IMG/VR virus record: IMGVR_UViG_3300027734_000045
Coordinates: 1-64,000 of that record
Origin: a virus
Reading direction: 5' to 3' (one strand)
Length of the DNA: 64,000 nt
Of the stretch, positions 3,101 to 64,000 are shown in pieces. The notes beneath the pieces are model-generated. The model worked only from the letters and a program-made list of their open reading frames with translations. It did no database searches and had not been told where the DNA came from. A program made the translations under genes and the position numbers. Position 1 is the first letter of the stretch; every line of letters starts with the position of its first letter.

Positions 3101-3630
3101 GTTGCGCCTGTAGTTCCTTGAATACCTTGTAAGCCTTGGACTCCTTGAGAACCTGTTGCGCCTTGAGAACCTGTTGCGCCTGTAGTTCCTTGAATACCTT
3201 GTAAGCCTTGGACTCCTTGAGAACCTGTTAGGCCTTGTGCGCCTTGAACTCCTTGGAGACCTTGCAGACCTTGAATGCCTTGTGTACCTTGCGCGCCTGT
3301 AGTTCCTTGCAGACCTTGCAGACCTTGCGCGCCTGTGGCACCTTGTGAGCCTGTAGTTCCCTGAAGACCTTGAACTCCTTGGAGACCTTGTGTTCCTTGT
3401 GCGCCTATTAGACCTTGGATTCCTTGCAGACCTTGAACGCCTTGGATTCCTTGTCGACCCTGGACTCCTTGAAGACCTTGAGTACCTTGAAGACCTTGAA
3501 CGCCTTGCGCGCCTTGTGGTCCGCCAATCCCGATTTCGACGTGGTTAGGTTGTTCTTGGACGATAACCTTGTTTACGTCGCGTGGGTTGACTATGACCTT
3601 GTTTGGTTGGTCTTCAAAATGAGATGTCAT
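1..3630 (-). CDS. collagen-like modular tail fibre protein (partial, 3' end outside window)
   Basis: One minus-strand frame stays open from the ATG at 3630 to the window edge, so at least 1,210 residues are encoded. I read the frame through the non-repeat parts and found no stop. The product starts MTSHFEDQPNKVIV and soon enters Gly-X-Gln type collagen repeats (GIQG, GLQG, GVQG). Three copies of a globular module interrupt the repeats, at about 2780-2430, 1320-960 and 660-300, each carrying a DPGSGN..RFNNAT signature. A segment at about 2215-1400 begins DGNDTTGNGDLLTPVASI and looks like a DUF1565/pectate-lyase type beta-helix. Such proteins form phage fibres that contact the host surface; that role is inferred. 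Its start overlaps the upstream gene's stop by one base (TAATG), so translation is probably coupled. Confidence 0.85.
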   Translation of the reverse strand, partial: MTSHFEDQPNKVIVNPRDVNKVIVQEQPNHVEIGIGGPQGAQGVQGLQGTQGLQGVQGRQGIQGVQGLQGIQGLIGAQGTQGLQGVQGLQGTTGSQGATGAQGLQGLQGTTGAQGTQGIQGLQGLQGVQGAQGLTGSQGVQGLQGIQGTTGATGSQGATGSQGVQGLQGIQGTTGATGSQGATGAQGTTGATGAQGTNGLQGLAGLQGLTGSQGTNGLQGTTGAQGTQGIQGQTGTQGATGAQGTQGIQGNQGVQGTGGVQGTTGIQGNQGTQGIQGTSATGARGGVRYTLSSITTDSDPGSGNMRFNNATDSLTTFIYIDQNDLASADQTAWYNSFDDSTSAIKGQLIIQLLASAITNSIIFNITGSIINGTGYYKIPVAYVSGSISTGSVVVEFRGNGDQGVQGVQGLQGTTGIQGLTGLQGLTGSQGTTGAQGTTGATGTTGAQGTTGTQGATGLQGLQGIQGIQGAQGTTFTGYDYEIHVSQVDGNDTTGNGDLLTPVASITKALTLVGSQRKTIIVHPGTYTESPSITTQYTTITGPGLVGGNIVISGTVSTSTGCTISGLKMTNLTVTTPTGTGNVNILNCEISGTFTKSSNADYVVLRLCDLAAASITGSGLVAIFGGNPNLITVNNASANVIVKSAVTVAPVLTAGTLSLVDSVVVAAVTNAVTSAASSVITLANCQLLTSALNNVAPVVLNGFYSILNCVYDKPNSTLVASSGTGGTTNSIDYFQYINADKFITQGGTSAQYVKGDGSLDSISPVGAQGTTGTQGDKGGVRYSFDTSTTAADPGQGKIRFNNATVGSVTQLYIDSLTVEGADVSAYIDAWGASTSSNRGWITIESNTNSDNTYVLAFVNGAVVNNTGWHTVPISIYSGTLPSNSEALVISFARAGNVGTQGTTGLQGNQGIQGTTGATGSQGATGAQGTTGAQGIQGLQGLQGATGSQGTTGSQGTQGIQGLTGTTGATGAQGATGSQGVQGIQGFTGRDGNFGGATFDYTYSTTTTAADPGTGFIRFNNATISSATQMYVDASNDATTDVSSFLNTIDDSSSAIKGHFRIAKKFDASVFALFTITALTNNTGWFTVTGSYVSGNPATFANSDDIIVTFVRTGDKGDTGSQGTTGSQGTTGSQGTQGTTGAQGLTGTTGATGSQGTQGIQGLTGTTGTTGAQGLTGSQGVQGLQGIQGTTGATGSQGATGSQGVQGLQGIQ
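3118..3244. repeat. 127-bp direct repeat, copy 2
   Basis: Identical to 1-127. A shorter match to the same block is also present near 860-912. Long exact repeats 3.1 kb apart in one gene are substrates for recombination that would delete or duplicate fibre modules. Confidence 0.9.
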
Positions 3631-43609: not shown

Positions 43610-44188
43610 ATGAATGCGATTACAAAACAAAATCACAAGCTTCCAACGACTGTAGCTTTCGTCTTCAAAGAAATCGCCACAACGCGAGAGCTAAGAGACA
43701 ACTACATCTCTGTTCTTAGAGAAAATGAATGGACTTTACAGTCGATTGCAGATTGCTGCGAACTCACTAGGGAGAGAGTCAGACAGCTTGCTTCTCGGAA
43801 ATCAGACCCCGGAGTAGTCTCCGAACTCATTCGCCTTGGGGCTGTGATTCCGACTCCACCGGAGAAACCTAAACGGGAAGTTGCCTTCAAGCCGGAAATA
43901 AAACCGGAGACCCTAGAGAAATTGCTAGAACTTCAGCCGCTTGCGCAACAAGTTCGCTCAAATAGCACGAAGTTCCGGGAAGAAGCTGAAGTCTACACGG
44001 CTCTTTTGTTTGACGCGTATAAAAACCAGGGAGTTTCTCTGTATCGGCTTGCAAAACTTCTCGGAGTTACTCATGGGGCGATAAGATTTAGGCTGGCGAG
44101 ATACGGATACATAAAACCTCAAGGCGGAAGCAGCAAAGTTTACGCTCTCGTAAAATCAGAAAACAGGGTGAAAATCTCAAATGGCTAA
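43610..44188 (+). CDS. two-HTH protein upstream of terminase, small-terminase candidate
   Basis: 192 residues. The first HTH (TLQSIADCCELTRERVRQLA) looks like sigma region 4; the second (GVSLYRLAKLLGVTHGAIRF preceded by LQPLAQQVRSNSTKF) matches the domain in 7535-7996 and 49309-49809. It overlaps the large terminase start by 8 bases, the place of the small terminase subunit. Function is inferred from place and the DNA-binding motifs. Confidence 0.65.
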   Translation: MNAITKQNHKLPTTVAFVFKEIATTRELRDNYISVLRENEWTLQSIADCCELTRERVRQLASRKSDPGVVSELIRLGAVIPTPPEKPKREVAFKPEIKPETLEKLLELQPLAQQVRSNSTKFREEAEVYTALLFDAYKNQGVSLYRLAKLLGVTHGAIRFRLARYGYIKPQGGSSKVYALVKSENRVKISNG

Positions 44189-45578
44189 AAGCATTATGGA
44201 ACAGTTAGCTCTTTTGCCGGAAGCGGAGAGATTAGAGATTCTTGCGGGCATGGACCCTGATACTTTGCTGTGGGATTGGTCGGTATGGGGAAGACCAGAA
44301 CAGCAAGCGCCTCAGGGTGAGTGGTCTATTTGGATGTATCTAGCCGGAAGAGGCGCGGGAAAAACGAGAGCTGCAGCGGAGTGGATTCGTGAAGAAGCAA
44401 AGTACACTACAACTGGGCAGAGAAGATTCGCCCTCGTTGCGAGAACTGCAGCAGACGTTAGAGATGTCATCGTTGAAGGTGAGTCGGGAATCATTTCCGT
44501 TACTCCGCCTTCCGAACGCCCTCTTTACGAGCCTTCGAAACGTCGACTCACTTGGCCAAATGGAAATACGGCAACTTGCTTCACAGCTGACGAACCTGAT
44601 TCACTCCGTGGACCTCAGTTTACTCACGCTTGGGGAGATGAGGTTGCGGCATGGAGGCAAACTCCGGACGCTGCCGGGATGACTGCTTTCGACAACTTGC
44701 GCGTTGGAACTCGTTTGGGCTCAAATCCAAAAATCATGATAACCACTACACCAAAAAGAGTGCCCTTGCTCTATCAGCTTTTAGAAGAAGAGAGAAAGAC
44801 GGGAAGAGTCGTCGTAACTCGTGGGTCGACTTTGGATAACTCAGGGAACTTATCAAGCTCTTACATCGATGCTATCACAGGAGTTTACGCTGGTACGAGA
44901 CTCGCGGCTCAAGAGCTTTACGGTGAAATGTTAGATAACGTTGAAGGCGCTCTGTGGACTGAAGAAATGATCGATAAAGGAAGAGAAACTGTCTTTCCAA
45001 TTGGATCTCCATTGAGAGTAATCGGTGTCGACCCTTCGGTTGCCGAGAACCCTAGAGACGAATGCGGTATCGTTGTCGTTGCTTCAACTGCAGAAAGAGA
45101 TTTATATAAACGACACGCTTGGGTTTTAGAAGACGCAACGATTCTCGGCTCGCCAGAAACTTGGGCGAATAAAGTAGTCGCCATGGCTCGTAAATGGGGA
45201 TGTCCAGTCGTTGCTGAAGTGAATCAGGGAGGCGCATTAGTTAGAAACGCAATTAACGCAATCGACCCTAACATCAAAGTTTTCGAAGTTCACTCAAAGT
45301 ACGGGAAAGCTCTTCGCGCAGAACCGGTGACTCTTGCTTACGAACAGAACAGAGTTCATCACGTAAACTACTTACCCGAACTTGAATCTCAAATGTATTC
45401 TTGGATTCCGGGAGAAGGAAAGTCTCCAGACCGAGTCGATGCTTTAGTTCACGCGCTTACTGCTCTGCTAATTAAACCACCGCAAGGTTTCGTCGGTGGA
45501 AAGATTACCGCAAAGTCAGTTGCTCACAGAAAGTTCGATACGGGAAGAGGCGGCGGAGGAATCTTCAAAGTTCGCTAA
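44181..45578 (+). CDS. terL: terminase large subunit
   Basis: 465 residues. Walker A AGRGAGKTRAAAEW (about 55-68), Walker B HAWGDEVAAW, and C-terminal nuclease motifs VIGVDPSVAENPRDE and RVDALVHALTAL. This is the packaging motor that cuts and translocates phage DNA into the prohead. Length is normal. The next gene on the plus strand in the packaging order, the portal, lies 5 kb away because of the inserted minus-strand block. A terminator follows at once. Confidence 0.95.
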   Translation: MAKSIMEQLALLPEAERLEILAGMDPDTLLWDWSVWGRPEQQAPQGEWSIWMYLAGRGAGKTRAAAEWIREEAKYTTTGQRRFALVARTAADVRDVIVEGESGIISVTPPSERPLYEPSKRRLTWPNGNTATCFTADEPDSLRGPQFTHAWGDEVAAWRQTPDAAGMTAFDNLRVGTRLGSNPKIMITTTPKRVPLLYQLLEEERKTGRVVVTRGSTLDNSGNLSSSYIDAITGVYAGTRLAAQELYGEMLDNVEGALWTEEMIDKGRETVFPIGSPLRVIGVDPSVAENPRDECGIVVVASTAERDLYKRHAWVLEDATILGSPETWANKVVAMARKWGCPVVAEVNQGGALVRNAINAIDPNIKVFEVHSKYGKALRAEPVTLAYEQNRVHHVNYLPELESQMYSWIPGEGKSPDRVDALVHALTALLIKPPQGFVGGKITAKSVAHRKFDTGRGGGGIFKVR

Positions 45579-48180: not shown

Positions 48181-48426
48181 TTACACAACGTAAGCAAGAA
48201 CGTATCCACCATTCAATTTCTCTTGAACTTTTTCTTGAGCGATTGAAAGTGCACTTTGGTTTGAGTAAGCGTTTACAACTTTGTTCTGTCTCTGTGATTT
48301 CTCTGCCATTCCCCAAGACATTGAAACTTTATTATCAACAACGATTACTTCATAGATTTTCTTCTTGCCATTTAGTCCACGGTTTCCGTCACTGACCTTT
48401 AGTAGACACCATTTCTTTTCGTTCAT
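48181..48426 (-). CDS. WGR-domain-like protein, paralogue of 28051 (insulated unit 1)
   Basis: 81 residues: KKWCLLKVSDGNRGLNGKKK, IYEVIVVDNKVSMSWGMAEK, and an end NGGYVLAY. It aligns over its full length with the protein at 28051-28296 (K-W-LL..SDG.RG.NGKKK.YE..V.DN....SWGMAEKS). AAAGGAAAAAA ribosome site. Nucleic-acid binding is inferred from the WGR similarity. Confidence 0.65.
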   Translation of the reverse strand: MNEKKWCLLKVSDGNRGLNGKKKIYEVIVVDNKVSMSWGMAEKSQRQNKVVNAYSNQSALSIAQEKVQEKLNGGYVLAYVV

Positions 48427-48474
48427 TTTTTTCCTTTTGTCGTTTTGTCGTTTATTTATTTTTGGTACATAATC

Positions 48475-48515
48475 ATTATACACTATTTTTAGCAAAATAG
48501 CTGCACTTTAGCAAA
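48475..48515 (-). promoter_or_regulatory. minus-strand promoter module copy (drives 48426)
   Basis: Minus strand: TTTGCTAAAGTGCAGC, then AATAGTGTATAATGATT; TATAAT at 48480-48475. Confidence 0.78.
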
Positions 48516-50533: not shown

Positions 50534-52267
50534 TTGGGTGTATTTAGCCGAGAGCCACAGCCGCTTCGTGCAAGTGGCGCGACAGGCCGCATAGCTCCTC
50601 CGTCTATCCTGTCTACCACCTTTGGCAATGGATACCAAAGTCTTCCGTACTCAGCTCCTCGAGGTCTAACTGCCGCTGCCGCGCAGATAAGACTAAACGA
50701 TAAGGGAGAGGCCGAGCAGTTCAAGGCTCGTCGCGCAACCGCGGTATCCGCCTGGCAAAACGAGGCGTGGGAATACTACGACGCAATCGGTGAAATCAAG
50801 TACGCCTTTAATCTAGTTTCCTCCGTCGTAAGCCGCATTCGTCTATACGTGGCCGTTGTCGAAAACCCGGCCCAGACTCCAGTTGCAGTTAGAAGTGCCG
50901 CCAGCGTTGACGGTCGACTAGCCGGAGCCGCCGAGCGCGCGCTTGACCGTCTGAACTCAGCGTATGGAGGACAGGCAGGTCTTCTCAGAGACGCGGCACT
51001 AAACCTGTCCGTCACTGGAGAGTGCTATCTTGTTCAAATTCCAGAGCGCCTAGGTTCCGGTATCCCTGAGAGCTGGGACATCCGCTCAACCGACGAGCTC
51101 CTAATCGACTCAAGAGGAAACTACGCGATCGCGCCAAGACGCGACCTCACCGTAGCTACCGGAGGCGGAGATAAGAAGGGGATTATCCAGCTGCCGACCA
51201 ACGCATTTGTTGGCAGAATCTGGCGTGCACATCCGCGCTACTCAGAGGAGGCCGACAGTTCTCTACGCGGTCTGCTAGACATGTGTGCCGAACTACTACT
51301 TCTAAACCGCACCTTCCGTGCAACGGCGCGTTCCCGTCTGAACGCTGGTGCGCTCTATCTCCCAGACGGCCTAAGCGTCGCGGCTGGACCAGACCCTAAC
51401 TATCCTTACGATGACCCGGACGGTCTGACCGACGCTCCGACTCCTGAGGAGATGCAGGACGAGTTCGAGGACCAACTTGTTGACGCGATGACCACTCCTA
51501 TTAGAGATGAAGATTCTGCCTCAGCGGTTGTTCCACTTATTATTCGTGGTCCTGCGGAACTTGGCGACAAGATTAAGCAGTTTAAATTTGAACGCTCATT
51601 TGACCCGGCGTTGGCAGAGCGCTCAGACCGCGTTCTTGAGAGAATCCTTCAGGGACTAGACGTTCCAAAGGACGTGGTCACTGGACTTGCCAACGTAAAG
51701 TATTCAAACGCGCTGCAGATTGATGAGGCACTTTACAAGGCACACATCGAACCGATGATGCTGCTTATCGCGGATGCCATTACCGTTGTCTATCTTCGTC
51801 CTTATCTTATTGCAAATGGATTTGACGCGGTTGACGTCAATAGACTGGTTATCTGGTATGACCCGTCTCTAGTCGCAACCCGCAACGACCGCGCGATGGA
51901 CGCGGACGCAGGATTCGACCGCATGGCAGTTTCATTCGAAACATGGAGACGCGCGCACGGATTCTCAGACGCAGACGCTCCAAGTCCAACTGAGCTTGGT
52001 CTACGTCTACTTGTCGAGAAGGGCGCGATTACTCCTGAGCTAAGCGAGGCCCTGCTGAACGCGGTCGCACCTGACATCATGAAGGCTGCCCGTGATGCCT
52101 CACAGGCAACGAGCGTTGCGCCAATTCCAGACATGGTAAACCAGATGCTTAGCGGACAGGCTCCAGCAGCACCAGCAGCTCCAGCAGCAGAGCCAATCGC
52201 GCCAGCAGACGCAGCGCCGCCTCCACCCGAGGAAGCTCCACCAGGATTAGCAGAACCAATAGTATAG
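50534..52267 (+). CDS. portal protein
   Basis: 577 residues from a TTG after GAGGAGTTAACCA. AWQNEAWEYYDAIGEIKYAF and the central LLLLNRTFRATARSRLNAGA and FKFERSFDPALAERSDRVLE...ILQGLDVPKDVVTGL are typical of phage portals. It forms the dodecameric DNA gate at the head vertex. The C-terminus is a proline/alanine-rich tail. Follows small packaging-type genes and precedes the Dps fusion by 14 bases. Confidence 0.88.
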   Translation: MGVFSREPQPLRASGATGRIAPPSILSTTFGNGYQSLPYSAPRGLTAAAAQIRLNDKGEAEQFKARRATAVSAWQNEAWEYYDAIGEIKYAFNLVSSVVSRIRLYVAVVENPAQTPVAVRSAASVDGRLAGAAERALDRLNSAYGGQAGLLRDAALNLSVTGECYLVQIPERLGSGIPESWDIRSTDELLIDSRGNYAIAPRRDLTVATGGGDKKGIIQLPTNAFVGRIWRAHPRYSEEADSSLRGLLDMCAELLLLNRTFRATARSRLNAGALYLPDGLSVAAGPDPNYPYDDPDGLTDAPTPEEMQDEFEDQLVDAMTTPIRDEDSASAVVPLIIRGPAELGDKIKQFKFERSFDPALAERSDRVLERILQGLDVPKDVVTGLANVKYSNALQIDEALYKAHIEPMMLLIADAITVVYLRPYLIANGFDAVDVNRLVIWYDPSLVATRNDRAMDADAGFDRMAVSFETWRRAHGFSDADAPSPTELGLRLLVEKGAITPELSEALLNAVAPDIMKAARDASQATSVAPIPDMVNQMLSGQAPAAPAAPAAEPIAPADAAPPPPEEAPPGLAEPIV

Positions 52268-52281
52268 GAAAAGGAACATAA

Positions 52282-54693
52282 ATGCTTGACATTCTCCCGG
52301 ACGACCCGCTGGGTAGGGAAGAGCTTGCCGACGCGCTAGCCGAGACCTTATCTAACGTAGTTGTCTTTCAATACATGGCTCACGGTTTCCACTGGAACGT
52401 AAAGGGTCCGCACTTTGCTCAGTTCCACGAGTTCTTTGGAGAAATCTACGAGGACGCTCAAGGTTCAGAGGACGACCTAGCCGAAAACATTAGAAGAATC
52501 GGATACGACGCTCCGTCTGCGTTGCCACAGTTCATGGCACTATCAAACGTTCAATACGTTGAGTGTTCAAGTGACCCGCTAGAGATGAGCCAGGTTCTAC
52601 TGGAGGCCAACTCAGTTGTAATCGACTCGCTAAATGGTACGTTCACAATCGCCAACGCGATAAATGAACAAGGAGTTGCAAACCTAATCGCCGAGCGCAT
52701 CGACATGCACAAGAAATGGCAGTGGCAGCTAATCTCTACGCTAGGTCTTGACGAAAAGTCAATGGGAAAATCTAAGGCTGAATCTCCTTTAGAAGTATCG
52801 GACCACGATTACTCGTTGTTCGAAACGGACGTTCAGCCAGAAGAAGTTTTTGTTCCAACAACGGCTGCGGTTGGAAAAATAGTCTCAGAGGAGCAGGACC
52901 TAGCACAGGCTCTTCTTGACATCGCAAATAAGTATGGAAAGTTTAACGAAGACGATACCGGTATCTGGGCTGGGTACACTCCAGCGGCAGAAAACGAAGT
53001 TGCAGCCATTGGCGTCAAGTGCAGCAACTGCGTTCTTTATCGTGGCGGCTCAGAATGTGCAATCATCTCTGCTGAAGTAGAGCCTGAAGGCAAGTGCCGC
53101 TTTGCGGTAATTCCAGATGGCGTAGTTAGTTTAGACGAAAATCCTATAGAGAAGATGTTTTCTAAGCCACCTTACCTAGCTCAGGACGAGCTAAAGCAAA
53201 AGGTAGAAGACCTAGACGACTACGAGGAAGAATACCTAAACATCTCTGATTTGATTCCAACTCAGACTCATCTAGACCCAAGTAAGTTTAAGGACGCTCG
53301 CTCAATCACGAAGCCGGTAATCGTTTACGAAGACGCCGACGGATATAAGTTAGTTGACGGACATCATAGATGCGCTTCTAAGGCCATCGCAGGTGAAACT
53401 AAGATTATGGCAAGGGTCTACAGAGGTTTAGTAGCGGCAGCTTCATTGTTTACCGCGATACCAATAAGTCCTGACGACATAGAGCTTTCAGCCGATGGCC
53501 CTTGCTGGGACGGCTATGAGCAAATCGGCATGAAGATGAAGAACGGCAAGAAGGTTCCTAACTGCGTTCCGATAAACGCCGCCGCGACTGAGTTCGCTGC
53601 AACTGAAGATTCCTGTCCACCTGCCACTAGAGACATCGTTCTAAACGTCACCAACAGACAGAACGCCATCGACAACGTTGGCTACGGACCACTAAACCCA
53701 CTCGAGCCAAACGACGAGTTCTGGCAGGAGAAGGCAGACCGCTGGAAGACAACCCCAGAAGAGTCAAAGAAAAGCATTTGCGGAAACTGTGTATTCTTCG
53801 TGAGAACACCGAGCATGCTTAATTGCATTGAAGGCGGACTTGCCGAGGGTGGCTCAGGAGAACAAAACGCCTGGGACGCAATCGACAAAGCAGAGCTAGG
53901 CTACTGCGAAGCGCTTGACTTCAAGTGCGCTGCGTCTAGAACATGCAACGCGTGGGCAGCTGGTGGACCAATCACCGAGGAAAAGAGCTCTACTGAGACG
54001 TCAGACGACACCGTCAGCTACTCACCTGCCGACGCTCGCAACGCAGTCTACGCGTCTGGTTCTAAGCCTGCGCCAAAGAAGGACCGCATAAAAGGTTCTA
54101 AGAAAAACGCCCCAGGCTCTGCTAAGAACAAGAAAAAGGTAATAACCTTTTCAAAGGAAGTAGAGGCCTCTCTTCGCAAGAAGGTCACAGACCACAACGC
54201 TAAAGCGAAGACCGAGGGTCGTCAGGCAACATTGCCAATGCTAAAGGCCGTTTACCGCCGAGGAGCCGGAGCGTACTCAAGTTCTCATAGACCAAACATC
54301 TCTCGCGCAGCCTGGGCAATGGCAAGAGTAAACGCTTTCCTACACCTGCTCAAGACAGGTAAGCCTGCTAGCGTGAAGTACACCCAAGACAACGATCTAC
54401 TTCCAGCTAAGCATCCAAAAGCTCCAGGCGCGATTACCGCAAGTATTTTTAGCGAGCTTGCCGTTGAGCTTAAGGAAGAAAATGAATACGCGTCTCCAGA
54501 ACATGCTATATTTGCACTAGCAGAGTTCTCGGGAATGGGTTACGAGATTATTCCTGCACTTCGCGCAAGCTGGGCAAGAGCTGTTAAAAACGACGAAACA
54601 CCTTACAAACGAGCAATGAACCTTGCCACAAAGTTGTACAATAGTAATGACGCTGACCTGCTACCAGCAGATAAGAAAGGCACCTTAGAGTGA
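52282..54693 (+). CDS. fusion protein: Dps-like ferritin domain + Cys-rich parts + ParB-like domain + phage C-terminal domain
   Basis: 803 residues. Residues 1-155 are Dps-like: HWNVKGPHFAQFH (two His 12 apart), then EDDLAE with Asp 15 residues after the second His and Glu 4 later, the exact spacing of the E. coli ferroxidase ligands. About 243-275 is CSNCVLYRGG...C...GKCRF. About 317-385 is ParB-like (NISDLIPTQ, VDGHHRCASKAIAG). About 405-566 holds two more Cys-rich parts (GNCVFFVRT, CEALDFKCAASRTC). About 640-710 is AVYRRGAGAYSSSHRP and YTQDNDLLP, common in phage head genes. Likely a virion protein; iron oxidation is inferred from residues only. Confidence 0.8.
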   Translation: MLDILPDDPLGREELADALAETLSNVVVFQYMAHGFHWNVKGPHFAQFHEFFGEIYEDAQGSEDDLAENIRRIGYDAPSALPQFMALSNVQYVECSSDPLEMSQVLLEANSVVIDSLNGTFTIANAINEQGVANLIAERIDMHKKWQWQLISTLGLDEKSMGKSKAESPLEVSDHDYSLFETDVQPEEVFVPTTAAVGKIVSEEQDLAQALLDIANKYGKFNEDDTGIWAGYTPAAENEVAAIGVKCSNCVLYRGGSECAIISAEVEPEGKCRFAVIPDGVVSLDENPIEKMFSKPPYLAQDELKQKVEDLDDYEEEYLNISDLIPTQTHLDPSKFKDARSITKPVIVYEDADGYKLVDGHHRCASKAIAGETKIMARVYRGLVAAASLFTAIPISPDDIELSADGPCWDGYEQIGMKMKNGKKVPNCVPINAAATEFAATEDSCPPATRDIVLNVTNRQNAIDNVGYGPLNPLEPNDEFWQEKADRWKTTPEESKKSICGNCVFFVRTPSMLNCIEGGLAEGGSGEQNAWDAIDKAELGYCEALDFKCAASRTCNAWAAGGPITEEKSSTETSDDTVSYSPADARNAVYASGSKPAPKKDRIKGSKKNAPGSAKNKKKVITFSKEVEASLRKKVTDHNAKAKTEGRQATLPMLKAVYRRGAGAYSSSHRPNISRAAWAMARVNAFLHLLKTGKPASVKYTQDNDLLPAKHPKAPGAITASIFSELAVELKEENEYASPEHAIFALAEFSGMGYEIIPALRASWARAVKNDETPYKRAMNLATKLYNSNDADLLPADKKGTLE

Positions 54694-57600
54694 GCATCCA
54701 AAACATAGTCCTACCTCTGTCTCTTCGACTTCGCATTGCCGAAATCGTATCCGAAAAGAACAACTCGGTACTTGCGGCTCGTCAGGTTCCGTTGACCGCT
54801 GCCTACGTGGTTGCCAGACGTGCAATCGCCCTGACGGCAAGCCTCGACCCTTCAGTTGAAGGCTACGTGGCAATCAAGGCAGTCACCGCCTTTACCACGC
54901 TTGCGATCGACGGTAGGACGTCCCTTACCGCAAGCAGCGGGTTAGACATCTACCGCGACGTGCTTCCAATTGGTCACCCTGAGTTTTCAAACGCGGCCGT
55001 CTTGCCAATTAAGACGCTTAGAGCTGCCCGCGCAGAATGGCTAGCCGCAGACCCACGAATCGCCGACGAGTACCGTCCGCTAGTTGCCTCTGCGTTTGGA
55101 GCGACTCCTGGCTCGCTTGAACAGCGCCACGCCCGTGCGCGTTTAGACCGCGTCGACTCTCACAGCGTGCCGCTCGACATCGTACTTGCTCCACTAATTG
55201 CCGCTGCTAGAAAAATTGACATCGCAGCTCTAAAGGCTCGTGTTGCTGACCAGCTCCGCGACCCACACACTGGACAGTGGATTGAGGAAGGCCACTTTGC
55301 GATGTTTGACCTAAAGGGTCCTAGCGGAAAGATTCGCAAGGTGTTCGGTCAACTTGTTGGTGGTAACGACATGCTCGGCTACGGTGAGATTCACGTGACC
55401 GATGACCCAGACCTCGGCACCGGTGTAGTCAAGGTAAACAAGGCTAACATTACAGCTGTAGGCGGTATGCTTACAGACGAAAACCTAGAAAAAGCAGGCG
55501 TTGACCCACAGGGCAAGCAGAGAGTTTACCTAAACACTGATGCACAGAGTCTAAACGACCTAGCTAAGACCATGGACGTCGCGCCTAGTGACTGGACCTG
55601 GGATGCAAACGAAGACAACTCAAACGGCAGCAAGGGAGCGTTTATCTCTGCCGACGGTTTCAAGGCCGTTCCTGTTGGCGAAGGCGGACAGAACGCCAAG
55701 ACCTTCGACATCTTTGACGCAGATGACAAGCCGATTGAAACTCTGCAGGGTGAAGGTTGGGGAAACATCCAGGGCGGTCTACAAAAGATTCGCCAGGACA
55801 TGGCAAAGAAGGTGGACGCAGGTAAGCCTGCAACCGAGAGCACCGGTACCGCGCAGATGATTCCTGCTGGAAAGCTCCAGGCTGGAGACAAGGTTGACGT
55901 GGCAGGCAAAGAGAACACCGTTGTCTCAGTTAGCAAGCCGTATAAATACAAGGTAAAGCCTACTGACCTAAAGCAGACCAAGTCTGGCTATAGAAACGTG
56001 GTAGACGTCACCCTTGAAGACGAGAACGGCGAGCGCGTCACTAAGCGCTGGAACCCTGCGACTGAAATCCAGGCTATTCGTCCAGAAGGCAAGGAAGAAG
56101 CTCCAGCAGTCGAAGGAGAAGTAGAACACGGTCTATCCGATACTTGGACCAGCGTAATGAACGGCGCGTTAGGCAAGCGCGAGCAGCAGCTGCGCGACCT
56201 TGAAAAGTCATTCCCGCCAGACGCCGCGGCAACCGCTGAAATGAACGAGTTAGCAGCGGCTAGAGCAAGAATCAAATCAGGAGTGGTCACCGAGGCAGAC
56301 CTTGAAAAGGTCAAAGAACTTCTCAGTCAGGAGGACGGCGCCGATAGCCTGTTTACAAAGCCAGGTTCAACGATATCCCAAATCGACAAGCTTCTAAAAT
56401 ACAAGTTTGGTAAAGACGGTGCTCCTAGGAGCATGAGCCAAGAGTCCGATGACGCCGGTAAAACTCCTATCGAACCTGGCCAGAAGGTTAAGGGAGGCGT
56501 TTCTGACCTTCTCGACGACTACGATAAAGAATTACAGAAGAGCGGCTTCGACGTAGGAATGCGCGACGGCACCTGGACATCAGCAGATGGCCGTTTGGAA
56601 CTCTCTTACGAGGATGACGCATGGAACGTCAAGTTCGATGGAGAACTAGCGGCTAAGGTCACCATATGGGAAGAAGACGAGAACGGTAAGTATTACGAAC
56701 CCGACGACGACAGCATCTATGAGTCAATTTTCGACAGTCTTTATGGCGAACTAACAAAGGACTTTACCAAGGAAGACTACGTCGACGACATGGTCAGCAG
56801 CGGCCAAAGATCGATCCAAGAAATAAAGGACCTTGGAAAACTTCCTGACGAATCTGATGAAGACTTTGGTGCAAGAATCAAGAAACTAGAAGACGGCCTA
56901 TCATCTTTAGAAAGCTACATACGCTCAGATGACTTTAAGTACCTTCCAGATTCAATGAGAACAGAAGCCTATGGCACCTACACTCCGGGTACCAAAGCCT
57001 CTCCTATGGAACAAAAGCTAAACTCGCTATTAGAGTCTGCAAGACACGCTGGTTATAAGTCTCGTGAACTGTATTTGAAAGATCTCTTCGCTAAGAAGAA
57101 GGCCGAAATAGACGAAGCTAGTAAAGCTACAGGACCTTCACCTGATGCTGCCGCTGAAGGCAAGGTGAAGGCCAAGAACAAGGCCGAGGCAAAAGGCAAG
57201 ATGGCCGAGCCTGCCACGGACGCGCAAAAAAACTACGTAAAGGCAATGCTGAAGAACCCAGCAGTTCCAGACGATGTTCGCTCTAGAATTCAGGCTGACC
57301 TCGATGAGCAAGGCGACGCGATAAACAAGAACGACATCGGTCTTCACATCGCTGAGCTAAAGAACTACCCGAGCAAGAGTCTGCCGACAGACAAGATGTA
57401 TAACTCGATACAGCGTGAGCTCTACGCCCGCGGAGCCTCTCCTGAAGAAGTCGATAAGATTCTTGCTGACCTGCCTAACATGGACAAGAAGCAGGCCTCA
57501 GACCTAATCGGTTCGCTGAAGGAGAAACCAGACCTTGCCGGCGAAGAGGCAACTAAAAACGGATTTGAAGAAACCACCAATGAGTCTGATAAGTACGATG

Positions 57601-60600
57601 GTCAGCGCCGCTGGACGAAGGTTGAAGCAGGTAAGCGAACTACAGTTCTGCTAAACGGTGATGGCTGGAGAGTTAATCACCAAAGCAACGTAGACCCAGC
57701 AACTGGAACCTGGAACGACTCGCAAATGCAGTCGATAGACCACGACTCAGAAAAGAGTTCCAGCGCCGACGACGTGTTTAAGAACGCGGCTGACACCCAC
57801 GAAACTCTCGGAGCCAAGGAAGAGCTTCCAATCGACGAGAGTGCTGTTGCCGCTGACGTAGCCGCAGAAGTTAAGGAGCTTAGCGACAAGCAAAAAGAGC
57901 CTGCCACCGATAAGCAGCGCGCGTTTGTTGATAGTCTTCTTGCCAACCCAAAGGTTCCAGCCGACGTAAAGAGTGACATCGAGTCTAAACTTGCCGCAAA
58001 GCCAGACATGAACAAGGCAGAGATTGGCGAGATTATTGGTGCCCTAAAGAAGCTCCCTGGCTCAGACGCACCTACCAGTAAGATGCTCAACTCAGTAAAG
58101 CGCGAGCTCATCGCACGTGGCGTTCCAGTCAACGAGGCGAATGAGACTAGAGCTAACCTAGACGGCATGAGCAAGAGCGAGGTCTCAGACCTAATCAGCA
58201 AGCTAAAGAGTAAGGACGATGCCGCAGGAGCTCAAGCAGCGGCTAACGGCTTTGTTGAGGCCACCACTCCAGAGGACCAGGCAGGCGGAGTTCGCAGGTT
58301 CAACCTACTTGGAAGTGACGATGAGCTTCTAGCTGCACTTACGCTAGACGGCGAAGGCTTCACCGTGAACCGCAAGGATGAGAACGGCGAGGACGACGAG
58401 TTGTTCCTTGGTCGCAACCTAGGTAGCTTTGAGAGAATCGCAAACGCGGCTAAGGCTGCGCAGGACCTAAAGAACACAGACGTCACTAAGACTCCTGGAT
58501 TCGACAGTGAGTCAGACAGAGAAAAGAAGATTGCTACGGCTACGTACAACAGACCTGGAGACAGTGGCACCTGGATGGAGGGCAAGACTCCAGATGGACA
58601 GCGCGGTTGGTCGTACTACGATGCCGATGGAAATGTTACTGAGGTAACTGAAAATCCCGATGGCTCATTTACTAGACGCAGCAGCGACGCCCCTGAGCCT
58701 GTCACCTTTGATAGCGTAGACGAGGCGTTCTCGCTTGACAGTAAGCCAAGCGACACTGGCAGTAAGATGTCAGACTTCCAGGACGACTTTGACGACATAA
58801 TCGAGGCGGTTCAAGGACTAGACTTGTCAGGAGACGATGAGTCAAGCGACGACACTCCTGCGTCAGACCTAAAGAACTACGTGTCTAATCAAGTTACGCA
58901 AGCGGAAGAGCTCATCAAGAAAGGTGACCTTCTCTCCGCGCAGGCCTCGCTGGCCCTTGCCGCGGCTGACGCAAACGATTCAGACGTCCCTGGAGCAGAT
59001 GAGCTAGGAGACGCGCTGAACAACGCAGCTAAGTCGATAGCTGACATTAGAGAAGCGCAAAAGGCACTTGGCCAAGGTAGTGGCGGCGGAGATGAGCCTC
59101 CAAGCACTAACGCTCCTTCGTCTGCAGGCGACGACGACTTTGAAAACAACGTACGTGACGTCTCTGGCGACATCATGAGCATAGGCGAGGAACTAGACAA
59201 GAACCTCAAGAGCTCTGCGATAAACGCCATAGAAGAGCGCGAGGTTGCAGACGGTAGAACTATTCTAAAGAACGCAGAAGACTCAATGGGTCAGGCGCAG
59301 GAGGCACTTGCCGCTGGAGACACTGAGACTGCAAGAAAGCTTATCGACCAGGCAGCTAGTCAACTAGCCGACGCGTCAGACGTCTTCGAAAACATCTTGG
59401 ACCAGTCCGATGAAGGCAAGGCGGTAAGAAAGCTTGGAAAGAGTGCCGGTGACCTCGCTCTTAAGATAAGAGAAACTCTTCTTGATGGACAACCGCGAGG
59501 CGGAGGATCTGCCGGTGACAGAATCTTTGGCAAGGCTGGAATCTCCGATGACAGAATCATGCAGGCCATGGAGGACGTTGACGACTGGGTGGCATCCGAG
59601 AAAGGCAACGAGGTTTCTGGATGGGATAACAAGGTAGGCAACCTAGACCAGATGATTTCTAGTTTCAACGACGAGCCAGAGGCGCGCATGCAGAAGACCG
59701 CAGAGGCTCTGTACGAGCTAGGTCGTGAACTTGAAGACAATGGCTACAAGGATTCTGCGAACACCTTGTTCGACATGTCCAAGGCACTTTCAGACGAGTT
59801 CTACGGTGACTCTGACGAAGACGAAGACGAGACCTCCACTTCAGGCACTGCAGAGTACGCGCCGGCGACAGACTGGACTCCTGCTGAGAACGGGTTTAAC
59901 TTTACTGGCGGAGATGAGCCGGGAGAGGTCTCAGCAGCCTTAGCTAAAAAGAAGAAAAAGGTAGAAGACCTTATCGCAGATGGCGACTACGGAGGCGCGC
60001 TAGACGAGCTCTTCGACGGAGCGGCGAGCATTCCAATGAGCCGCGCCATGGAAGACGACCTCTCTGGATCGTACGACGGCATTCAAGATGGAGACGTCTT
60101 CTACCAAAACGCCGATACCATAGTCTATAAAACCAAGGATGGTCGCTGGAGAGTCTACTCTAAAGACGAGACGGACGGGTTTATCGACACCGGAGAGCCT
60201 GCCACTGACCAACTAGCCGACGAGCTTCTTAAGGAGATGATGGCGCCAAAGAGTGATTGGACACAGGCAAGATTCTATGACCCTCGCCTAAATGACTTGT
60301 TCCACGCCAACAACGCGCCTGGCCCGAGCGGAAACCCAGCTAACCACACGAGTACTCCTAACTACAAGATTAGCTTCGACGGTCTTCGCATGCCAGACGA
60401 CTGGGCAGGTGACCTTGGTCTTCCTGAAAAGGGCGAGGAAGAAGAACCTTACTCTGACGGTGAACTAATCGACACCTGGCTAAAAAATAACGGTCTAGAT
60501 GAGCTTGGCGTAAAGTGGGACCCAAGCTCAACAGAGACTACGTTTGGCGGAGCAAACGTCAACTTTGAGATTCCTGAAGGTGCCAAGGACAAGTTTGGCG

Positions 60601-63600
60601 AGGCCTACTATGGAGAAGGTGCCACCTGGAAGGACCTCGAAGACGACGAGATTCCAGAGGCCATCGAAGGCGGAGAACCCTCTTCATCAATCTATTCAGA
60701 CACCGAGAAAGCTGCGATGAATCGCAATATCGGCGACAGCGTAGTAGTAGTTGGTAAGAAGGGCAAGGAGAAGCCTGGAAAGATTATCGGCGTCGTACCT
60801 AGTTCTATCGGACAGTACATAGTAGAGCACGATGATGGAAGCACCTCTCTTCCTTGGTACTTTGACCTCAAGCCAGAAGGCGCAGAAACTCCTTCCGCTG
60901 ACAAAAAGCCTACAGAGGCCAGATTCAACGGCAAGATTGGCGACAGCGTAGTAGTAGTTGGTAAGAAGGGCAAGGAGAAGCCTGGAAAGATTATCGGCTA
61001 CGTACCTGGCTCAATCGGGCAGTACATCGTAGAACACGATGACGGAAGCTCCTCTCTTCCTTGGTACTTCGACATGAAGGCAGACGGCTTAGAAACTCCT
61101 TCCGCAGATGGAGAAGGTACTACAACCTCTCCAGCAGAAACTGAGAAACCTAAAAAGGGTAACCAGATTGGCGAACGTATCGTCGTGATTGGTAAGAAGG
61201 GCAAGGAGAAGCCTGGAAAGATTATCGGCTACGTACCTGGCTCAATCGGGCAGTACATCGTAGAACACGACGATGGAACAACATCTCTTCCTTGGTCCTA
61301 CGAAACTAAACCTGAAGGTGGAGAAACTAACCTAGGCTCAAGCGGCAGAAGCTCCGAGCAAGTGGCTAGAGACGCAGAAAACGCTAAGAAGACTGCGAAC
61401 GAGCTTGCCGCGGAGTGGAACAGCAAACCTTTCCCTATCGCAGACCCAGACAGTCTTGCCAGTGAAGAGTCTCTCACTAAGATGAGAAACATACTGCTAG
61501 ACGGCGCAACCAACTCTGATTACTTTGGTCCAGCGTTGAAGGCAATAGACGACCCAAATCTGTCAGGCACCGAGAAACTACAAAGAATCGCTGACGCGCT
61601 AACTGAACGTGGAGTTGGCTCTGATGGAAAAGGCGTCGACCTCCCTAATGCAAACCCTGGACTTCCTCTAAACGGAGACTACTCTGGAAGAGAAAAGGCC
61701 TTGTGGGCTAAGTCAAACATAACAAGGGCGCTAAATCTAAATGGAATTTTCTCTACCAAGGAAAAAGAAGCAGGAAAAGATAAGCTAAGTCCTAGGCTAC
61801 AAAAAATCGTTGACGCAGAGCTAAAGAAGCGCAGTGAAGGTGACGAGGGCAACGAAGGTACAGGTGGTGTCGACCCAAAAGTACCAAGCCCTAGTAAGCC
61901 AGGGGGAGGTGGCGCAGAGGCTAGTACCAGCGAAAACTCCTCGCCGGAGCTCACGTCAAAGGTAGAAGGAACAAACGCGCAGCTCACAAAGCGCTTTGCC
62001 TCTCGCGACGAACGAGACGCCTGGCTAAAAAGCATTCCTAAAGGAGCAGAGGCCGGAATTGCAATATCTATATCCAGCCCGACTGACTTTGATTTTTACA
62101 ACAAAAAGCGTGAACACTACGAAGTAAAAATCGACTTCGACACGCGCACCGAGGGGCTAGGCGTGCCTAAGGGGTTAGGCGCAGGTAGAAAGAAGGCTAT
62201 CGAGTGGGCCGAAAAGGAAGGATTCGATCTCTCTGAGGGAGAGCACAGCAGCGAATCCCTGGTTCCAAAGGTTAACGTTGACGACAAGATTACAATGTCC
62301 AACATTAGATTTGATGACAAGATCGACCAAGCCGAAAAGATTGAGGCTAAACTAAAGCCTGGAGAAGAAAAGGACTCAGCGAGACTTAGAATTAAGTTGG
62401 CTAGAGACAAGATTTCTAAGGCAAGAAAGGCTCGCCTAGACGGAGACCTCGAGGAAAGCGAAAAGCTAACTGAGGAGGCCTCGGCCGAGCTAACCGCGAT
62501 GGCTGAGGACATAGAAAAATACATGGTTAGCCCAAAAAGCCAAGACGCTAAGTATGGATTAAAGAACAAAGAGATACGAGAAGACGCAGCAAAGCTAGCC
62601 AAAGCAGTCGAAGCAGTTACGGCAAAAAGTAGAATAGCCTTTGCTGAAGAAAAAGAGGCTAAGTCGACTGAGTCTTCTGCATCTAGCTCAAGTACCATAA
62701 CAGGCGACAAGTACAAGAAACTTATCGACAACGCGTACGAAAAGTACGACCCGGGAGTAGCTCAGCACAGCTGGGACACAAAGGGAATTGGCGAGTCAAT
62801 CATGTCTCACCTTACCGGGATAGCTGACGACATCAAGTCAGGCAAGGAACTAGACGCCAAGGACGCCGCAAAGAAGATGCGTCAGCTTGCCTCGATGTAC
62901 AACGAACTTGCTGACGCAGCAACTGGCAGTGAGGGAGAAGATGGAGCTGAGTGGAGCACAGACGACTCCTCGATACAGGACCTTATCCAAGGTGCCCAAG
63001 AACTTGAGAAGCAGGCTGACCTGCTTGACCCTAAGGCGGTCGATAGCCCAAAAGCTGAAGCGCCTAGCGAACCTGACAGCGGTGAAACACAGGAGCCTAT
63101 TTCAGTAGACAGTGTACTTACAGATGGAAGTTTAGCCAGCAAAATTACAAAGAACGCAGACATGGACGCAGCTGAGCTCGAGCAGCTGAGCACCAGAATA
63201 GCTAAAGAGTTAGAGAACAATCCTCAACTAGCCGCGGTGCTAAAGCTTAGTGGAGATAGTCCTATTCTTAGCGCCCTTGAAGAACTAAACTCCTCTAATG
63301 GAGAGTCTTCACAAGGTTTAGAAGGCGACCTCAACGTTCTAAGAGACACCCTAGACTCTACAATAGAAGACAGCGAACTAATAGACTCGCTAACTAGGCT
63401 GCTAAAGAGCGTAGAAAAGAAAAACAACACCAAGAACCTAACTGGTTTTAAAAAGATTAGCGAGGCCAAGGGCTCTAACCCAGGTGGAATCTACGAGGAC
63501 CCTAAGACAGGCGAGCGCTTCTACGTAAAGTTCCCTAAGTCAACACTTCATGGCGAAAACGAGGCACTTGCCTCAGCCATCTACGAAGAGCTAGGTGTAC

Positions 63601-64000
63601 GCTCAGTCAAGGTCGAGCAGGGAGAACTTGATGGCAAGCCTGTCACCTACACCAGGATGATAGACGGCGCTAAGAGTGACCTAAAGGATAAGCTATCAGA
63701 CAAGTTCTACATGAAGCAGCTGCAGGAAGGCTTTGCGGTTGACGCTCTTCTTGCCAACTGGGACGTGGCCGGCCTAGAGTACGACAACGTGGTATCTGAC
63801 GCAGAGGGACTTCCTGTTCGCGTTGACCCAGGAGGCGCGCTTCTGTTCCGCGCTCAGGGAACTCCAAAGACAGACGACCAGTTCAATGAAAACGTACCCG
63901 AGCTGGACACCTTTACCGACAAGAACAGCTCGCGTCCTGCCGCCAAGATATTTAGCTCGATGACTGCAAGTGAAAAGTTGGACTCCGCGGTAAAGCTTAG
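54690..64000 (+). CDS. giant multi-domain structural protein (partial, 3' end outside window)
   Basis: A GTG overlapping the previous stop (GTGA) opens a frame that I checked at many points to the window edge: at least 3,103 codons. Recognised parts: an N-terminal head-protein-like segment with RDPHTGQWIEEGHFAMFDLK (about 185-205); two copies of a PATD.Q..FV..LL helical domain (about 841 and 1071); acidic helical repeats (about 1400-1700); three KOW/SH3-like repeats (VVVGKKGKEKPGKIIG, about 2013, 2083, 2159); and a HipA-like kinase domain at the end (YVKFPKSTLHGENEALAS, LLANWDVAGLEYDNVV, RVDPGG). Head-associated or injected protein is inferred. Confidence 0.85.
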   Translation, partial: MSIQNIVLPLSLRLRIAEIVSEKNNSVLAARQVPLTAAYVVARRAIALTASLDPSVEGYVAIKAVTAFTTLAIDGRTSLTASSGLDIYRDVLPIGHPEFSNAAVLPIKTLRAARAEWLAADPRIADEYRPLVASAFGATPGSLEQRHARARLDRVDSHSVPLDIVLAPLIAAARKIDIAALKARVADQLRDPHTGQWIEEGHFAMFDLKGPSGKIRKVFGQLVGGNDMLGYGEIHVTDDPDLGTGVVKVNKANITAVGGMLTDENLEKAGVDPQGKQRVYLNTDAQSLNDLAKTMDVAPSDWTWDANEDNSNGSKGAFISADGFKAVPVGEGGQNAKTFDIFDADDKPIETLQGEGWGNIQGGLQKIRQDMAKKVDAGKPATESTGTAQMIPAGKLQAGDKVDVAGKENTVVSVSKPYKYKVKPTDLKQTKSGYRNVVDVTLEDENGERVTKRWNPATEIQAIRPEGKEEAPAVEGEVEHGLSDTWTSVMNGALGKREQQLRDLEKSFPPDAAATAEMNELAAARARIKSGVVTEADLEKVKELLSQEDGADSLFTKPGSTISQIDKLLKYKFGKDGAPRSMSQESDDAGKTPIEPGQKVKGGVSDLLDDYDKELQKSGFDVGMRDGTWTSADGRLELSYEDDAWNVKFDGELAAKVTIWEEDENGKYYEPDDDSIYESIFDSLYGELTKDFTKEDYVDDMVSSGQRSIQEIKDLGKLPDESDEDFGARIKKLEDGLSSLESYIRSDDFKYLPDSMRTEAYGTYTPGTKASPMEQKLNSLLESARHAGYKSRELYLKDLFAKKKAEIDEASKATGPSPDAAAEGKVKAKNKAEAKGKMAEPATDAQKNYVKAMLKNPAVPDDVRSRIQADLDEQGDAINKNDIGLHIAELKNYPSKSLPTDKMYNSIQRELYARGASPEEVDKILADLPNMDKKQASDLIGSLKEKPDLAGEEATKNGFEETTNESDKYDGQRRWTKVEAGKRTTVLLNGDGWRVNHQSNVDPATGTWNDSQMQSIDHDSEKSSSADDVFKNAADTHETLGAKEELPIDESAVAADVAAEVKELSDKQKEPATDKQRAFVDSLLANPKVPADVKSDIESKLAAKPDMNKAEIGEIIGALKKLPGSDAPTSKMLNSVKRELIARGVPVNEANETRANLDGMSKSEVSDLISKLKSKDDAAGAQAAANGFVEATTPEDQAGGVRRFNLLGSDDELLAALTLDGEGFTVNRKDENGEDDELFLGRNLGSFERIANAAKAAQDLKNTDVTKTPGFDSESDREKKIATATYNRPGDSGTWMEGKTPDGQRGWSYYDADGNVTEVTENPDGSFTRRSSDAPEPVTFDSVDEAFSLDSKPSDTGSKMSDFQDDFDDIIEAVQGLDLSGDDESSDDTPASDLKNYVSNQVTQAEELIKKGDLLSAQASLALAAADANDSDVPGADELGDALNNAAKSIADIREAQKALGQGSGGGDEPPSTNAPSSAGDDDFENNVRDVSGDIMSIGEELDKNLKSSAINAIEEREVADGRTILKNAEDSMGQAQEALAAGDTETARKLIDQAASQLADASDVFENILDQSDEGKAVRKLGKSAGDLALKIRETLLDGQPRGGGSAGDRIFGKAGISDDRIMQAMEDVDDWVASEKGNEVSGWDNKVGNLDQMISSFNDEPEARMQKTAEALYELGRELEDNGYKDSANTLFDMSKALSDEFYGDSDEDEDETSTSGTAEYAPATDWTPAENGFNFTGGDEPGEVSAALAKKKKKVEDLIADGDYGGALDELFDGAASIPMSRAMEDDLSGSYDGIQDGDVFYQNADTIVYKTKDGRWRVYSKDETDGFIDTGEPATDQLADELLKEMMAPKSDWTQARFYDPRLNDLFHANNAPGPSGNPANHTSTPNYKISFDGLRMPDDWAGDLGLPEKGEEEEPYSDGELIDTWLKNNGLDELGVKWDPSSTETTFGGANVNFEIPEGAKDKFGEAYYGEGATWKDLEDDEIPEAIEGGEPSSSIYSDTEKAAMNRNIGDSVVVVGKKGKEKPGKIIGVVPSSIGQYIVEHDDGSTSLPWYFDLKPEGAETPSADKKPTEARFNGKIGDSVVVVGKKGKEKPGKIIGYVPGSIGQYIVEHDDGSSSLPWYFDMKADGLETPSADGEGTTTSPAETEKPKKGNQIGERIVVIGKKGKEKPGKIIGYVPGSIGQYIVEHDDGTTSLPWSYETKPEGGETNLGSSGRSSEQVARDAENAKKTANELAAEWNSKPFPIADPDSLASEESLTKMRNILLDGATNSDYFGPALKAIDDPNLSGTEKLQRIADALTERGVGSDGKGVDLPNANPGLPLNGDYSGREKALWAKSNITRALNLNGIFSTKEKEAGKDKLSPRLQKIVDAELKKRSEGDEGNEGTGGVDPKVPSPSKPGGGGAEASTSENSSPELTSKVEGTNAQLTKRFASRDERDAWLKSIPKGAEAGIAISISSPTDFDFYNKKREHYEVKIDFDTRTEGLGVPKGLGAGRKKAIEWAEKEGFDLSEGEHSSESLVPKVNVDDKITMSNIRFDDKIDQAEKIEAKLKPGEEKDSARLRIKLARDKISKARKARLDGDLEESEKLTEEASAELTAMAEDIEKYMVSPKSQDAKYGLKNKEIREDAAKLAKAVEAVTAKSRIAFAEEKEAKSTESSASSSSTITGDKYKKLIDNAYEKYDPGVAQHSWDTKGIGESIMSHLTGIADDIKSGKELDAKDAAKKMRQLASMYNELADAATGSEGEDGAEWSTDDSSIQDLIQGAQELEKQADLLDPKAVDSPKAEAPSEPDSGETQEPISVDSVLTDGSLASKITKNADMDAAELEQLSTRIAKELENNPQLAAVLKLSGDSPILSALEELNSSNGESSQGLEGDLNVLRDTLDSTIEDSELIDSLTRLLKSVEKKNNTKNLTGFKKISEAKGSNPGGIYEDPKTGERFYVKFPKSTLHGENEALASAIYEELGVRSVKVEQGELDGKPVTYTRMIDGAKSDLKDKLSDKFYMKQLQEGFAVDALLANWDVAGLEYDNVVSDAEGLPVRVDPGGALLFRAQGTPKTDDQFNENVPELDTFTDKNSSRPAAKIFSSMTASEKLDSAVKL
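60729..61310 (+). repeat. three in-frame repeats of a KOW/SH3-like module
   Basis: GGTAAGAAGGGCAAGGAGAA and the bases around it occur three times (starts about 60729, 60938 and 61166), nearly identical in DNA. The encoded unit reads GDSVVVVGKKGKEKPGKIIG, then SIGQYIVEHDDG and SLPW. Near-identity suggests recent duplication. Confidence 0.88.

Follow-up and report, generated by a model that had tools for sequence, protein, structure and literature searches.

The nearest characterised counterpart of the domain reported here is the Dps of Pseudomonas aeruginosa (PA0962), a mini-ferritin whose crystal structure shows two irons coordinated by H37, H49, D64 and E68. It oxidises Fe2+ with H2O2 and not with O2, and at neutral pH it forms a 12-mer only in the presence of divalent cations (PMC10002758). 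The same domain family is encoded by phages (phrog_3636), among them Lactobacillus phages, 'Gratiaviridae' and phages of Streptomyces, Aeromonas and Proteus, and stand-alone phage Dps proteins have already been described (PMC6669764, PMC8008677). Freshwater phages carry ferritin among their genes against reactive oxygen species (ROS), for which a role in the host cell is proposed; the passages found there do not mention fusion to a head-maturation protease or to a protein encoded behind the portal (PMC6802176, 2019). In Vi01-like phages ('Ferrojan horse') a ferritin-like protein has been detected by mass spectrometry, but this is a different protein which is proposed to function in tails and entry, and when iron-uptake mutants were tested for infection no dependence was seen (PMC10892097). 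Polyvalent phage proteins are mosaic, multi-domain proteins encoded together with portal and head genes and include ParB-like domains (PMC5512222, 2017), and encapsulin iron compartments such as IMEF consist of a shell of the HK97 fold that encloses a Dps-related ferroxidase cargo (PMC6668986).

The window, the whole stretch of 64,000 nucleotides that was analysed, belongs to an IMG/VR virus record of 121 kb whose remainder is covered by loci L081-L084. It encodes a protein of several modules directly behind the portal gene (Table 1), as the first-pass annotation had stated; the gap to the portal stop codon is 14 nt, and the stretch AGGAAAAGGAA precedes the ATG. The TGA stop of the reading frame overlaps the GTG start of a giant gene (GTGA). 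The genes behind that one encode a protein of 220 aa, a head-maturation-protease protein of 1342 aa, a scaffold-like protein of 151 aa and the major head protein. An identical gene layout is found in a related Actinomycetia phage, DSL-LC01, which comes from Dishui Lake, and this kinship, together with a WhiB-like gene read from the sequence at record positions 109528-110037, suggests that the host of the window virus is actinobacterial. The giant protein (L081:91-13266) has almost no Pfam matches and hits only phrog_636; its residues ~2950-3150 look kinase-like by eye and recur in relatives. A small ORF at window positions 48181-48495 (-), which runs counter to the head genes, reads like a WGR domain (KWCLLKVSDG...SMSWG), and a minus-strand protein elsewhere in the record (L084:5391-8060, record 118390-121059) contains collagen-like GTTGSQGTQGIQG repeats.

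Table 1. Head-operon features of the window and modules of the 803-aa protein
Feature	Coordinates	Strand	Residues	Basis
Terminase large subunit	44181..45578	+		read from sequence; homologue annotated in DSL-LC01
Portal protein	50534..52267	+		phrog_776 1.1e-104; immediate upstream neighbour of the Dps ORF
Whole multi-domain protein	52282..54693	+	1-803	ORF with ATG; second head-operon gene, after portal
Dps (mini-ferritin) domain	52315..52752	+	12-157	Pfam Ferritin 4.6e-17; phrog_3636 1.7e-23; PDB 8ff9 1.3e-19; predicted fold
HIP1, probable HiPIP-type iron-sulfur domain	52879..53139	+	200-286	C-x2-C-x8-C-x12-C
ParB/Srx-like segment	53257..53439	+	326-386	VDGHHR motif; profile matches
Two-cysteine motif CWDGY...VPNCVP	53494..53598	+	405-439	21 non-redundant copies, positions vary
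CYS2	53608..53979	+	443-566	alignment: seven invariant Cys
DUF5824 domain	54133..54396	+	618-705	Pfam PF19141 8.4e-07
CTER, helical C-terminal module	54430..54690	+	717-803	recurs in relatives
Start of giant protein (4391 aa)	54690..63998, on to 67865 of the 121-kb record	+		ORF

Profile searches and the predicted fold agree that residues 12-157 are a genuine Dps domain, which confirms the initial assignment of the N-terminal ~155 residues. AlphaFold2 predictions, made for monomers only and with a 29-sequence alignment, give residues 12-154 a pLDDT of ~93 and show a four-helix bundle (helices 12-39, 45-72, 99-126 and 130-154) with a short BC-loop helix (81-87). The structural comparison that had been proposed as a check bears this out, as the best Foldseek matches of the model in the PDB are all Dps proteins, with top target-normalised TM values of 0.87-0.92. 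In the full-length model the mean pLDDT is 53 and most of the chain beyond Dps is poorly modelled. The nearest solved structure is P. aeruginosa Dps (PDB 8ff9), which shares 29% identity, the fold, a conserved Trp and four ligands at identical residue numbers, with the difference that the window Dps is the N-terminal domain of a much larger head-operon protein. Among predicted structures in BFVD the model is best matched by UniProt entries A0A6J7WPK9, A0A6J7XDU5 and A0A6J5N5R9 from uncultured Caudovirales, which are called 'Prohead protease' or 'Ferritin/DPS'; these names appear to be automatic, and no description of the proteins was found in the literature searched.

The predicted di-iron ligands are H37, H49 (+12), D64 (+15) and E68 (+4), exactly the E. 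coli Dps spacing that the first reading had claimed, whereas the Asp found four residues past the second His in E. coli and Listeria innocua is replaced by G here and by Q, E, G or A in relatives. All four ligands are kept in 94 of 94 non-redundant phage relatives with a median pairwise identity of 44%, and they belong to only 10 invariant columns out of 143 (H37, W38, N39, G42, F45, H49, Y56, D64, E68 and W148); the probability that four given columns would all be among the invariant ones by chance is ~1e-5. Iron binding, one of the functions originally suggested, is strongly supported by this conservation. The invariance of W38 and Y56 near the metal site would suit catalysis, since the conserved Trp/Tyr pair of L. 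innocua Dps traps radicals, and taken together the constancy of ligands, Trp and Tyr argues for a working metal site. A chance or artefactual origin of the Dps match is ruled out by the many independent contigs and by Pfam scores far above the cut-offs. A recent transfer from host to phage is not supported, as only five contigs match among one genome per species from 84,980 species; three of these lie in metagenome-assembled bins and are perhaps phage contigs, and two are distant (26-32% identity).

The Cys-rich parts noted in the first-pass annotation are real and conserved. All four Cys of HIP1 are invariant and their spacing is that of PioC, which is also the first PDB match of a HIP1 profile built from 16 relatives (E 0.064), with HiPIP 3h31 third (0.5). 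Pfam HIPIP is matched by 12 of the 16 relatives, at best with 0.006 and below the formal cut-offs, and the window protein scores 13.3 bits, the cut-off being 22; the structure model is weak (pLDDT 58). These matches are suggestive, and HIP1 is probably a HiPIP-type cluster domain. CYS2 matches Pfam HIPIP marginally (0.08) and a profile search against the PDB found no relative, although a stand-alone CYS2 gene in DSL-LC01 is annotated 'high potential iron-sulfur protein'. HIP1 or CYS2 may bind zinc instead of an iron-sulfur cluster. An additional Cys-rich stretch, CPLCG..GCVCPGC...CLC...C.C..C, occurs between Dps (or its remnant) and the HiPIP-like module in L010 and, by family consensus, in other relatives; it is absent from the window protein. 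In two loci (L125:3043-5151 and L144:3115-5175) a HiPIP-like module is joined to a Zeta-toxin kinase domain 5' of a stand-alone Dps gene.

The protein had also been described as a fusion to a ParB-like protein. The motif is there and profiles match weakly (phrog_1033 2e-4, a PDB ParB family protein 0.0038), and all five members of the segment family match Pfam ParBc_2, at best with 3.4e-4, the window member scoring under the Pfam cut-off. The segment is ParB-like but weak, and it is a small, optional module that is present in few relatives. DUF5824 sits in a very basic stretch (residues 589-714, net +22), and the model of CTER has a pLDDT of 69-86 over residues ~731-790. Matches to the profile GIANT_N were disregarded because it had drifted onto this C-terminal module. 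Pfam and PHROG searches gave no match to a Peptidase S78 domain in the window protein. The chain joins several disparate domains and is encoded with packaging and head genes, two features it shares with polyvalent proteins.

When the Dps domain alone served as the query, it was found at no fewer than 576 viral places. Among the best 80 of these at least 576 places, which are the nearest relatives and not a random sample, Dps lies in the head operon at 57, directly after the portal at 49 (26 stand-alone, 22 fused and one cut by a contig end) and within a protease polypeptide at eight; at 23 it was not seen beside the portal or in a protease. The proposal of a Dps domain in a head-operon protein that is ferroxidase-competent by its predicted ligands is supported, and the arrangement is recurrent. 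In 79 related viral loci these modules have been rearranged, separated and lost: Dps forms a gene of its own between the portal and the remaining modules in L002, L045 and L060, and part of a protease polyprotein in L057 and L062, where it lies beside protease and scaffold-like segments. Five relatives that lack the domain (L005, L010, L018, L021 and L035) retain a stub of helix A which ends before the first ligand and scores above shuffled controls, which implies that Dps has been lost in some lineages, and the many close relatives without it indicate that the domain is dispensable. A further group (L110, L126, L132, L140, L143 and relatives) encodes stand-alone Dps proteins of 144-174 aa beside small lysine-rich proteins and on the strand opposite to baseplate-like genes, a context unlike the head operon.

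Dps is also fused to head-maturation proteases. The S78 domain is present in eight relatives, of which L095, L099, L102 and L103 combine a HAD phosphatase-like domain, Ferritin (5e-14 to 5e-16) and Peptidase S78 (~1e-48) in one chain that is flanked by the portal and the major head protein in HK97-type operons. L177 has the order Dps-S78, in L163 and L166 Dps is placed between another N-terminal module and S78 (PROT_N-Dps-S78), and the S78 domain is likewise found in L178. An S78-Dps-scaffold-like architecture occurs as well; in L109 an XkdF-type S78_2 domain precedes Dps, and in L131 Dps follows a head maturation protease (phrog_2753) and adjoins a Phage_capsid gene. Relatives of the HAD-Dps-S78 protein without the Dps part exist (L179-L194), and Dps is likewise missing from this protease in phiPsal1, a cultured Pontimonas phage. 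A tree of fusion origins gives five changes by parsimony, of which strongly supported branches force only one, its columns being too few to prove several independent fusions; the distinct architectures argue for more than one independent fusion. The operon of L131 (1723-3738, 6609-7841) also holds, upstream of the protease-Dps fusion, a portal fused to an ADP-ribosyltransferase (Pfam 2.8e-10), and its capsid gene weakly matches the encapsulin model Linocin_M18.

The head-maturation proteases of HK97-type phages act inside the prohead and often leave it or are degraded after maturation. Repeated fusion to enzymes that work there is the best indication that Dps is meant for the assembling head, and since relatives carry the same domain on such proteases the window protein is likely to be present in virions. 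The preferred reading, which is given an even chance, is that this modular protein carries an N-terminal Dps domain that works as a head-associated di-iron ferroxidase and consumes Fe2+ and H2O2. The protein would be synthesised late and incorporated into the procapsid as the head is assembled, where the Dps domain would bind Fe2+ and oxidise it mainly with H2O2, as its closest characterised relative does. This would clear both Fenton reagents from the surroundings of the head proteins and of the genome, whether packaged or newly injected. The Cys-rich neighbours, one of them probably of HiPIP type, may add redox or structural roles, and the ParB-like, DUF5824 and other modules may be interchangeable passengers as in polyvalent proteins. 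Points against a head-associated ferroxidase are that a protease which leaves or is degraded could take its Dps passenger with it, that Dps lies elsewhere at 23 of the 80 loci, that none of the isolated phages searched was found to carry the fusion, and that many close relatives do without the domain.

Defence of the infected cell against ROS is a less probable explanation, according to which a free Dps acts late in the host as an auxiliary ('moron') gene and its place in the head operon means only late and strong expression. Freshwater phages commonly carry ferritin and other ROS-defence genes for which protection of the infected host is proposed (PMC6802176), stand-alone Dps genes exist in phages including those of Bacteroides in addition to the groups named above, and the copies directly after the portal include the 26 stand-alone ones. 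Against this explanation stand the in-frame fusion, in several architectures, to proteases that must act inside the prohead, and the fusion to a mosaic protein whose modules occur in protease polypeptides. The constancy of the ligands might also stem from oligomerisation that depends on metal, and not from catalysis. The Dps bundle would then form a metal-triggered or scaffold-like core in head assembly, its site stabilising the structure without turnover, which would fit the divalent cations needed by the P. aeruginosa 12-mer (PMC10002758) and the scaffold-like neighbours of Dps in L057 and L062. Such a purely structural use is nevertheless improbable, as the invariant W38 and Y56 suit catalysis and heads evidently form in many close relatives that lack the domain.

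It is yet less probable that the whole protein is an injected polyvalent effector, packaged and delivered with the DNA so that its Dps, Cys-rich and ParB-like modules exert their effect in or on the newly infected host. The related loci do contain ParB-like domains, giant multi-domain neighbours and fusions with ADP-ribosyltransferase and Zeta-toxin that fit polyvalent proteins, a class with some packaged members, but the main text of the survey mentions no ferritin, Dps or iron domain (PMC5512222), and the ParB-like segment is weakly matched and seldom present. Compaction or protection of DNA by direct binding of Dps inside the head, which the first-pass annotation had also considered, is the most improbable of these explanations. 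The family name, the role of E. coli Dps and the possibility that the chain binds DNA through its basic DUF5824 stretch speak for it. Compaction is disfavoured by the charge of the domain, which is acidic in all 94 phage relatives (net -2 to -17): residues 1-158 of the window protein have a net charge of -19, and the N-terminal 16 residues (net -4) form no lysine-rich tail, whereas the tail of E. coli Dps is basic. Such a basic tail occurs in only some Dps proteins and is no condition for belonging to the family.

The fusion of Dps to head proteins appears to be undescribed. None of 50,697 records of isolated phages matches the fusion over 80% of its length, the isolated-phage features that do match are annotated as Dps, DNA-binding or hypothetical and none is a fusion to head proteins, and literature searches found no paper on a protease-ferritin or head-protein-Dps fusion. 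The earlier remark that no role was known for such a fusion holds to this extent, and does not extend to stand-alone phage Dps and ferritin-based ROS defence, which are known. A bolder and rather doubtful extension, drawn by analogy, is that the heads of several phage lineages are encapsulin-like iron-redox compartments in which Dps would be loaded into an HK97-type shell through fusion to the protease or a post-portal protein, HiPIP-like modules would serve as electron partners and the packaged genome would be protected or chemically conditioned. The comparison with encapsulins is an analogy only, as phage heads package DNA.

Phage ferritins have so far been read as host-protection genes. A ferroxidase that is recurrently fused to head-building enzymes and portal-linked proteins would place iron and peroxide chemistry inside virions or in their assembly. 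This could matter for how well virions survive in water that is sunlit and rich in peroxide, and the encapsulin iron compartments may here have a counterpart in phages.
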